35,404 nucleotides of DNA from Frigoribacterium sp. (lineage in GTDB: Bacteria; Actinomycetota; Actinomycetes; Actinomycetales; Microbacteriaceae), in contig JANYIZ010000011.1 in assembly GCA_025408445.1 (NCBI GenBank), positions 1 through 35,404 on the forward strand. Reading direction: 5' to 3'. The stretch's first letter is position 1. Every line of letters begins with the position of its first letter. The notes beneath the pieces are model-generated. The model was given only the letters and a program-made list of their open reading frames with translations. It had not been told where the DNA came from and ran no database searches. Positions 33,960-35,404 of the stretch are shown in pieces. A program made the translations under genes and the position numbers.

Positions 33960-34214
33960 ATGATGAGCAACACAATGCAGTCAATGTCTGATTCCCACGT
34001 TTCTAATGAACACCGCCTGACGGGTCACCGCTGGGTGGCGATGGGGCCGGCTGGAGCGCTCGGCTCCGTGCACAGCGTCGAGGGCGGCTTCACCTTCAAG
34101 CTTCTGACGGATGACGGCTATCGCGGTGTCTATCCGACCCTGGATGTCGCGCAAAGCGCGCTCTACGCTGCACTGCTGCCGGGCTCGGAGTGGCCGGAGT
34201 TTCGCGAGCACTGA
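33960..34214 (+). CDS. Small conserved hypothetical protein
   Basis: An 84-residue protein. After a polar N-terminus, the core runs GHRWVAMGPAGALGSVHSVEGGFTFKLLTDDGYRGVYPTLDVAQSALYAALLPGSEWPEFREH. It looks like one short beta-sheet followed by a helix, similar to short hypothetical proteins of related actinobacteria, function unknown. AAGGAG lies 5 bases before the ATG. The next gene, 88 bases on, has its own LexA-controlled start. Confidence 0.75.
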   Translation: MMSNTMQSMSDSHVSNEHRLTGHRWVAMGPAGALGSVHSVEGGFTFKLLTDDGYRGVYPTLDVAQSALYAALLPGSEWPEFREH

Positions 34215-34268
34215 CCGATCAGGCCGCTACGTTTGGCGTGTCGTGACCATGGCGTCTACAGTCGACTA

Positions 34269-34284
34269 TCGAACAAACGTTCGA
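34269..34284. promoter_or_regulatory. LexA-binding SOS box
   Basis: TCGAACAAACGTTCGA is a perfect inverted repeat that matches the Gram-positive/actinobacterial LexA consensus CGAAC-N4-GTTCG, with the inner bases AAAC fitting the preferred R-N-R-Y. It ends 18 bases before the ATG of the next gene and so lies in its promoter or leader. LexA binding would silence this gene until DNA damage. Confidence 0.85.
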
Positions 34285-34302
34285 ATGTCGGAGGTGGTAA
34301 AA

Positions 34303-34563
34303 ATGACCCTTGTTGGCGCGACCGTGACCGTCTGGACCGGAGCCAGGGGCATACCAGAGCGGTTCGTCTGGGCGAGCAGTCGCTATCGAGTCACCGACAC
34401 GCCGACACCGCTGGATGTCGACTATGCGGCGATCACCCATCCGGGTTCGATGCCGCTCGGCTGGCGCTTCCAGGGTACGTCCGACAGCGGGGACACTCGC
34501 ATGTTCGACGTGCTCTATGACGCTTCCCGGGGCGAATGGCAACTCCTCCACACCTACGTGTGA
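34303..34563 (+). CDS. DUF6504-like small protein, predicted SOS-controlled
   Basis: An 86-residue soluble protein: VTVWTGARGIPERFVWASSRYRV at the start, then PLGWRFQGTSDSGDTRMFDVLYDASRGEWQLLHTYV. The pattern of an RFVW...RYRV block followed by a W-x-F block and a closing RGEWQLLH-Y matches my memory of DUF6504, a family seen beside ImuB/DnaE2 translesion genes in actinobacteria. No such polymerase genes lie next to it here; a DinB end is at the far side of the window. GGAGG lies 8 bases before the ATG. The perfect LexA box makes DNA-damage induction likely. Family match is by eye and moderate. Confidence 0.65.
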   Translation: MTLVGATVTVWTGARGIPERFVWASSRYRVTDTPTPLDVDYAAITHPGSMPLGWRFQGTSDSGDTRMFDVLYDASRGEWQLLHTYV

Positions 34564-34630: not shown

Positions 34631-35188
34631 ATGACCGACACCATCACACTCACCGGCTTTGTGGCCACCGTCCCGAATCACTTCGTCACCGGCGAAGGGC
34701 TTCCCATCACCAGCTTCAGGCTGGCCTCTACCCAACGTCGTTTCGACCGCTCTCGCAACTTGTGGGTCGACAACGGCACCAACTGGTACACCGTCACCTC
34801 GTTCCGGCAGCTCGCGATGAACACCAACAGCTCGATCAGGAAGGGCGAGCGGGTGATCGTAACCGGCCGCCTGCGCATCCGGGACTGGACCGCTGGAGAT
34901 AAGGTCGGCACGTCAATCGAGATCGATGCGGACTCCATCGGCCACGACCTCACTTGGGGTACTGCGTCGTTTACCCGCAGCATGTCGAGCGCGGCGATCG
35001 ACGCGTCTACGCGGGCAGAGGCGGATGCCGCCGCCCCCGAGTCGTCCGCAGTGACAGCCGCCACCTCCGCTGGCGACGGCTGGCCGACCGCAACACCTGG
35101 CGCGCCGGATGGCCCCGATGATTCACCTTCGGCCGGAGACGATGAACTCGTCGGCGCTGCAGTAGACGGCGCGGCCGTACCGTTCTAG
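34631..35188 (+). CDS. Single-stranded DNA-binding protein paralogue
   Basis: A 185-residue protein with one OB fold of the SSB type: ITLTGFVATVPNHF at the start, the WYTVTSFRQLAMNTNSSIRKGERVIVTGRLRIRDW segment with the conserved ssDNA-contact aromatics, and TSIEIDADSIGHDL. The C-terminal third is Ala/Pro/Asp-rich and ends VPF in place of the usual DDDIPF tip, so partner binding may differ. Actinobacteria often carry a second SSB for transformation or stress, and this one may be that paralogue. No ribosome site is clear before the ATG. Its stop overlaps the end of the converging gene by 4 bases. Confidence 0.85.
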   Translation: MTDTITLTGFVATVPNHFVTGEGLPITSFRLASTQRRFDRSRNLWVDNGTNWYTVTSFRQLAMNTNSSIRKGERVIVTGRLRIRDWTAGDKVGTSIEIDADSIGHDLTWGTASFTRSMSSAAIDASTRAEADAAAPESSAVTAATSAGDGWPTATPGAPDGPDDSPSAGDDELVGAAVDGAAVPF

Positions 35189-35404
35189 GAGCTGGGCCAC
35201 TGCAGGCCGCCTCGGTCAGCCGCTGTGAGTTGCTCGTTGGTGAGTGGCACCACGGTGGCGAGCAACATGTCGCGAGGGACTTGTGCCTCGTCCGCAGCTG
35301 GCCGATCCGCAACTGGCCGGTCGGCAACTGGCCGGTCGACAACTGGCCGGTCGGCAACTGACCGGTCGGCACCTGACCGGTCGGCAACTGGCCGGTCGAC
35401 AACT
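35185..35404 (-). CDS. Unrecognised protein, C-terminal part with pentapeptide repeats
   Basis: The frame runs off the right edge, so only the last 72 residues are seen. It begins in the window with DRPVA-type pentapeptides (from a 15-bp array), then [35 protein letters not shown] and a stop. The non-repeat end looks like natural coding, but I recognise no family. Acidic-basic repeats of this kind are usually flexible linkers. Convergent to the SSB gene with 4 bases shared. Confidence 0.6.
35295..35404 (-). repeat. 15-bp tandem repeat array reaching the window edge
   Basis: Seven full units of CAACTGGCCGGTCGG (plus strand, some with one or two changes) and the start of an eighth, cut by the edge. 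The array stays in frame with the partial gene and encodes repeated Asp-Arg-Pro/Ser-Val-Ala. No spacers, so not CRISPR. Confidence 0.9.

Follow-up and report, generated by a model that had tools for sequence, protein, structure and literature searches.

What does a gene of 86 codons contribute to the SOS response, if it stands behind a LexA box and its product resembles no described protein family at first sight? This question is raised by the end of a contig of Frigoribacterium sp. (JANYIZ010000011.1, positions 1 to 35,404; the window hereafter means this whole stretch of 35,404 nucleotides), where the gene for P0003 is located. An earlier note on this DNA had described the box and proposed a DNA-damage role for a DUF6504-like protein. 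The analyses reported below suggest that P0003 is a free-standing form of ImuB-C, a domain usually found at the end of ImuB, which assists an error-prone DNA polymerase. P0003 would thus probably add a further component to the damage-induced mutation machinery.

The LexA box in front of the gene

The features of the locus are listed in Table 1. The box TCGAACAAACGTTCGA fits CGAACRNRYGTTYG, which we take to be the Gram-positive LexA consensus, and it ends 18 bases ahead of the ATG at 34303, with a good ribosome-binding site, all as the earlier note had read them. The description of the box as a 16-base perfect palindrome is valid for its two complementary 6-base arms only, because the four central bases, AAAC, break the symmetry. 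The box lies just downstream of a putative -10 element and would therefore cover, or be next to, the presumed transcription start.

Table 1. Features of the P0003 locus, with positions in the window
Feature	Position	Strand	Evidence
Conserved promoter element TTGGCGTGTCG, contains TGTCG	34233..34243	+	conserved in homologous loci
Putative -10 element TACAGT	34257..34262	+	fixed spacing to TTGGCGTGTCG
LexA (SOS) box TCGAACAAACGTTCGA	34269..34284	.	consensus match, genome scan, conservation, shuffles
Ribosome-binding site GGAGGT	34290..34295	+	sequence
P0003, probable 86-residue stand-alone protein of the ImuB-C / DUF6504 superfamily	34303..34563	+	profiles, tree, predicted structure
SSB paralogue	34631-35188	same strand as P0003 gene	PF00436, E 2.9e-17

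The exact box is the single site in the window at up to one mismatch. Shuffled versions of the window contained 0.22 such sites on average, and 20 of 100 contained at least one, so that the window count alone is weak evidence for the box. In our judgement, its conservation across homologous loci is decisive for its reality. We collected 84 loci, namely the best 30 of 36 matches in genomes of the family and 54 loci in named genomes, 72 of which were non-identical around the start. A box was counted when at least 10 of the 12 arm positions matched between -120 and +20 of the estimated start. Such boxes were found in 69 of the 72 loci (12/12 in 23, 11/12 in 31 and 10/12 in 15) versus 12 of 1205 random 140-base stretches from the same loci; the loci are related and hence not independent, with protein identities that reach down to 36%. 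A distance of 18 bases to the start is the commonest among homologous loci, and the three loci lacking a box (L117, L127 and L129) are matches without the N-terminal part of the protein. Two plasmid-borne homologues have boxes as well (11/12 and 10/12). Judged by this conservation, the P0003 gene is almost certainly under LexA control, and the proposal of a LexA box with a probable DNA-damage role appears to have been right. In five Microbacterium loci (L110, L121, L124, L125 and L201) the box reads TAGAAC-N4-GTTCTA, not TCGAAC-N4-GTTCGA, hinting that LexA specificity has shifted in part of Microbacterium.

The genome to which the window belongs (3,049,879 bases in 220 contigs, 89% complete) encodes LexA (LexA_DNA_bind, E 2.2e-22) and RecA, the match of the latter being split across two contigs. 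A genome scan, which the earlier note had named as a check, bore out the box: exact TCGAAC-N4-GTTCGA occurs twice, in front of P0003 and at position 1947 of contig C196, and 417 sites were found at up to two mismatches versus 154 for a reversed control. The second exact box precedes a 93-codon DUF6504-like gene, P0004, which is followed by a dnaE2-type polymerase gene. On contig C60, an 11/12 box precedes imuA (NCBIfam ImuA', above the cut-off), with imuB behind it. The boxes upstream of lexA (two sites) and recA score 10/12 and are weaker than that of P0003. In addition, an 11/12 box, TTGAACATACGTTCGA, is found on contig C172 (position 7863, locus L017), 17 bases ahead of an open reading frame whose 125 available residues gave no Pfam match, and which we take to resemble a DUF222/13E12-type HNH protein.

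Relationship of P0003 to DUF6504 and ImuB-C

As a single sequence, P0003 matched nothing in either Pfam or NCBIfam at E <=1, and the name DUF6504-like thus found no direct backing in a Pfam profile search; it gained backing at the level of the family. Seven of the 30 members of the P0003 family alignment (A1) match PF20114 at E <=0.01 (best 1.7e-4), and, relative to the cut-off of 24.2 bits, clade member L070 lies above (26.7) and L072 just below (23.3). Comparison of A1 with an alignment of DUF6504 matches (A4) by hhalign gave 97.9% (E 5.9e-13) over 87 columns, that is, the full length, versus 0.1% for the unrelated neighbour P0002 used as a control. A4 comprised 19 of 27 DUF6504 loci, with L053, L054, L056, L070 and L072-L075 omitted. 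Meanwhile, PF20114 matches residues 428-501 of the 504 residues of Rhizobium etli ImuB (24.6 versus the cut-off of 24.2 bits). DUF6504 therefore covers what the literature calls ImuB-C, of which P0003 would be a stand-alone relative. On the strength of these profiles, P0003 very probably belongs to the ImuB-C superfamily. ImuB-C has been typed as mainly beta with a conserved C-terminal Trp (PMC3765255), and P0003 has both characters; its C-terminal W79 is conserved in at least 90% of A1 and is invariant in A6.

In the phylogenetic tree, 32 P0003-type rows are split from 20 other DUF6504 rows with support of 100/98, on 98 columns, which are few for 52 rows, and with a bootstrap that had not settled. 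P0004, the other copy in the same genome, is placed among the other DUF6504 rows on a long branch. All 19 rows of A4 share a WW motif that is absent from P0003. P0003-type proteins are mostly without it and have RYRVTDTPT and WRFQ in its place, but WW has been kept in three members of the clade (L070, L072 and L040). The profile similarity between the A1 family and the C-termini of actinobacterial ImuB (A5; 25 of 33 collected C-termini) is weak (25%, E 7.6e-4, 32 columns), that between these C-termini and DUF6504 is 22.6%, and none of the 25 C-termini matches PF20114. Pooling the P0003 and DUF6504 families to raise the similarity brought no gain (8.8%).

The AlphaFold model of P0003 is mainly beta with six strands (pLDDT 83.9, pTM 0.73), and the model of the C-terminus of ImuB from the same genome also has six strands (pLDDT 87.3), the order of which was compared with P0003 by eye. 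Foldseek searches returned nothing at E <=0.001 in the PDB or in a viral library (best viral match, a 94-residue protein at E 4.9e-3), and sequence profiles found no relative in the PDB below E 0.27. Known folds were rejected for both models, as the best VIA-align scores, Z 5.5 for P0003 (monellin, 3.1 A over 71 residues) and Z 6.3 for the ImuB C-terminus (2.1 A over 47 residues), are in the range of common arrangements. That neither model has a clear match in the PDB is in line with the statement in PMC12926913 that ImuB-C is seemingly a new fold.

Known stand-alone ImuB-C proteins

The earlier note held that few had described a DNA-damage role for such proteins outside imuB/dnaE2 clusters. 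This has to be corrected, since stand-alone ImuB-C proteins were tied to SOS operons in papers of 2013 (PMC3765255), 2019 (PMC6511836), 2021 (PMC8072749) and 2026 (PMC12926913). Known cases include Geobacter GSU0042, the Deinococcus operon lexA-imuY-imuB-C-dnaE2, and actinobacterial DnaE2B with ImuB-C. P0003 is like them in its size (about 80-100 residues), beta structure, homology over the full length and SOS context with LexA boxes. However, its clade is separate and mostly without WW, with VTDTPT...WRFQ in its place, is usually not beside dnaE2, and coexists with imuA-imuB. With the C-terminal domain of ImuB, P0003 shares the DUF6504 relationship, by way of the R. etli protein, and the six strands of the models, whereas it lacks the fusion to a Y-family polymerase domain and has weak direct profile similarity to the actinobacterial ImuB C-termini.

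The stand-alone kind of ImuB-C and its link to DUF6504 are already known, under the name ImuB-C. What appears to be new is a separate clade, mostly of Microbacteriaceae, whose genes are usually away from imuA, imuB and dnaE2 in genomes that mostly have imuA. The open-licence literature searched contained no account of a free ImuB-C that works alongside a complete ImuA-ImuB-DnaE2 system, and no paper on DUF6504 by that name. According to the passages cited, the stand-alone ImuB-C operons studied occur only in genomes without imuA (PMC6511836), and so does DnaE2B (PMC12926913). Our data suggest that this rule has exceptions as far as stand-alone ImuB-C is concerned. The Frigoribacterium genome has both imuA-imuB and a stand-alone ImuB-C, and therefore departs from these surveys; its second polymerase is of the DnaE2 type and may belong to the DnaE2B group.

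Distribution of the gene and its linkage to imuA, imuB and dnaE2

A search with the single protein (E <=0.01) found homologues of P0003 in 36 of 99 related genomes, its own included, all in its own family. A protein search of named genomes found 54 loci, in Lacisediminihabitans, Frigoribacterium, Galbitalea, Leifsonia, Salinibacterium, Microbacterium and others. An order-wide profile search added a broader view, with matches in 33 of 396 genomes, 15 of them in the same family and 18, with weaker scores (best 5e-17), in other families. The P0003 clade is separate and mainly found in Microbacteriaceae. Within the genus, P0003-type genes are present in 12 of 13 genomes, the exception being 64% complete, and P0004-type genes occur sporadically, in just two of the 13. 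An origin of the gene from phages or plasmids received no support from the searches: none of 50,697 phage records matched, and the two homologues found on plasmids (E 7e-6 and 1e-8) were both from Microbacteriaceae. Neither plasmid homologue has a polymerase gene annotated within 5 kb in the incomplete gene table. One of them, L200 on a plasmid of Gryllotalpicola protaetiae, is near an SRAP gene and has an 11/12 LexA box.

In 51 of the 54 named loci, no match to imuA, imuB or dnaE2 was found near the gene (flanks of up to 6 kb, some short). In the other three, Leifsonia loci L088, L089 and L094, imuA, imuB and dnaE2 follow downstream on the same strand, beginning at about 1.4-1.7 kb, and imuA has its own 12/12 box. 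In genome G040 imuA follows the homologue on the same strand, about 1.5 kb downstream of it, and L072 is directly ahead of a dnaE2-like frame, as judged by eye. The gene in the window is not beside dnaE2 or imuAB, on a contig that ends 0.84 kb past it; imuA-imuB and both polymerases are on other contigs. C60 (L016) carries imuA-imuB and then, at the contig end, the start of an error-prone polymerase. C196 (L018) carries P0004 and the second polymerase, which shows 26% identity to the first within the part that they share and has an error-prone polymerase model as its best NCBIfam match, below the cut-off.

The gene and imuA tend to occur in the same genomes. Within the family, imuA is present in 29 of 33 gene-bearing genomes versus 13 of the 27 others (Fisher p 0.0015, phylogeny ignored), which leaves four genomes with the gene alone and 14 with neither. 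Counted by genus, the figures are 19 of 22 versus 13 of 26 (p 0.013; 19, 3, 13 and 13 for the four classes). The cross-table kept 33 of the 36 gene matches; the three dropped ones, all in genomes with imuA, were counted as gene-less (G045, at 6e-4 inside a 2436-codon frame; G048, with internal stops; and G057, at 0.0076).

A PafBC-like promoter element upstream of the box

The 11-mer TTGGCGTGTCG is exact in 26 of the 69 boxed loci and present in 32 when one mismatch is allowed, with a control of 0/635. Among the 33 loci with at least 9 of its 11 bases, TANNNT follows 13 bases later in 30 and 12 bases later in one, and is missing in two. The element is mostly missing from the Microbacterium loci. 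The combination TTGGCGTGTCG-N13-TANNNT occurs once each in six of 60 family genomes (control 0), and all six sites precede P0003 homologues, the sixth (G461) as recognised by eye from the translation. In the Frigoribacterium genome, TTTGGCGTGTCG occurs exactly once, and 15 sites at up to one mismatch compare with 17 in the control; the element therefore looks gene-specific and not like part of a larger regulon.

The published PafBC (RecA-NDp) motif is TGTCGG-N10-TA-N3-T, with the variants TGTCAG and TGTCAC (PMC8151990). In the P0003-type promoters, the spacer between TGTCNN and TANNNT is 12 bases in 25 of the 69 loci, 10 in three, 11 in two and 7 in one (control 3/3226). The window promoter, TGTCNN-N12-TANNNT, belongs to the first group and so falls outside the published TGTCNN-N10-TANNNT. 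The promoters of other DUF6504 genes in Micrococcales have TGTCNN-N10-TANNNT in 15 of 23 cases, versus 0 of 1031 control stretches, and none has the half-site at another spacing between 6 and 15. Eleven of the 15 read TGTCGG or TGTCAG, and four differ at the fifth or sixth base. This set represents 23 of 27 loci, from which the clade relatives L070, L073 and L074, and L075 with its stop codons, had been omitted beforehand; L072, which the tree places in the P0003 clade, was kept and carries the motif. The 15 promoters with the motif (from L049-L072) combine it with a LexA box, and several of them lead a dnaE2-like gene. In the Frigoribacterium genome itself, the promoters of P0004, recA and imuA show, by eye, imperfect versions of the spacing-10 motif only, the imperfections being TGTG for TGTC, TGTC within the box itself, and CATATT for TANNNT.

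From these patterns we infer that LexA repression may often be combined with PafBC-type activation at ImuB-C genes here. The P0003 clade may have a shifted version of the PafBC-type promoter with a putative activator. Like the PafBC/RecA-NDp promoter, the P0003 clade has a TGTCG half upstream of the -10 element and the LexA box; it differs in a spacer two bases longer and in the extra, fixed extension TTGGCG. Dual control by PafBC and LexA as such is already known (PMC8223512).

Function of P0003

The starting points for a function are the box and its conservation, the full-length relatedness to DUF6504, and the match of DUF6504 to the C-terminus of ImuB; in addition, the same genome holds imuA-imuB and another ImuB-C gene, which is next to a dnaE2-type polymerase gene. 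We propose that LexA, bound to the box at the transcription start, would keep the P0003 gene off, and that DNA damage would lead to RecA-driven cleavage of LexA and transcription of the gene, to which a PafBC-like activator might contribute from the TGTCG element further upstream. LexA repression and damage induction via such boxes are established, for example, in Streptomyces venezuelae (PMC9380542). The product would be a free-standing, beta-structured ImuB-C (DUF6504) domain, which, by analogy with the ImuB-C of ImuB, would most likely bind DnaE2 at its PHP domain, ImuA, or both. Such binding would support or tune translesion synthesis, with a predicted effect on mutagenesis. The reading that we favour, at a probability of roughly 0.68, is that of an SOS gene for a stand-alone ImuB-C that is most likely an accessory of DnaE2 translesion synthesis.

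A paper of 2019 singled out ImuB-C as the module of the DnaE2 mutasome that had been characterised least (PMC6511836). An AlphaFold model has since placed it in contact with the PHP domain of DnaE2 (PMC12926913), and published modelling more generally gives it contacts with both this domain and ImuA (PMC12926913, PMC11791113); in an experiment, mycobacterial ImuB without ImuB-C still bound ImuA' (PMC11791113). In favour of a role with DnaE2 we counted the co-occurrence with imuA and the five cases of linkage to imuA-imuB-dnaE2, imuA or dnaE2. Against it we counted the 51 of 54 named loci with none of these genes found in flanks of up to 6 kb, the four of 33 gene-bearing genomes without detectable imuA, the 13 imuA genomes without the gene, the missing WW motif and the weak profile match to actinobacterial ImuB C-termini. 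With these points included, the analogy makes a role with DnaE2 somewhat better than an even chance.

P0003 could instead bind damaged DNA itself and recruit repair proteins independently of DnaE2, in line with the ImuB-C proposal of Aravind et al. in 2013 (PMC3765255). Such a role would suit the 51 of 54 named loci with no imuA, imuB or dnaE2 found in flanks of up to 6 kb, the four of 33 genomes that have the gene and lack imuA, and the two plasmid homologues without an annotated polymerase within 5 kb (table incomplete), one of them near an SRAP gene. We nevertheless consider it unlikely, as there are five cases of linkage to imuA-imuB-dnaE2, imuA or dnaE2, and published modelling places ImuB-C on DnaE2 (PMC12926913).

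The second alternative, which is compatible with the DnaE2-accessory reading, is an SOS-induced operon of ImuB-C and SSB. The gene behind P0003 is indeed SSB-like, although it scores below the cut-offs of every NCBIfam SSB model that it matched, and the gap from stop to start is 67 bases, not 68 as previously given. No terminator-like site was found in this gap, so a read-through transcript into SSB is possible at the window locus, and the same gene order is present in the close relative L076. As a general feature, the shared transcript suggested in the earlier note was rejected: a downstream SSB homologue on the same strand was found in just three of the 54 named loci (flanks of up to 6 kb), in two of which it is about 0.7-1.0 kb further off than in the window, and SSB is kept near the gene in the closest relatives only. 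An operon of this kind is distinctly unlikely. Two other features were seen in this part of the window. Upstream, an 84-codon gene (33960-34214) has no Pfam or NCBIfam match, and a homologue of it is present upstream in three of the 54 named loci; further downstream, a 15-base tandem repeat (35290-35404, consensus GTCGGCAACTGGCCG) of at least 7.7 copies runs to the window end.

A third possibility is attenuation, in which free ImuB-C and the C-terminus of ImuB compete for DnaE2 or ImuA, and SOS induction would restrain the mutasome, not help it. It would fit the coexistence with full-length ImuB in the same genome and the separate promoter of the P0003 gene, and the loss of WW could permit one contact and not another. 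However, four genomes have the gene without imuA, and we rate this hypothetical competition as improbable. Finally, it is highly improbable that the box arose by chance or is a relic, with the gene outside SOS control. Its presence in 69 of 72 loci versus 12 of 1205 control stretches, at protein identities as low as 36%, outweighs the occurrence of at least one site at up to one mismatch in 20 of 100 window shuffles.

The P0003 family provides an 86-residue, separately controlled ImuB-C in environmental bacteria that mostly also have imuA-imuB. Because the gene is small and separately controlled, its effect would be testable by deleting one small gene. Meanwhile, the frequent coupling of a LexA box with a PafBC-type motif in the DUF6504 promoters of Micrococcales suggests a design for the control of the damage response in which ImuB-C genes may take part.
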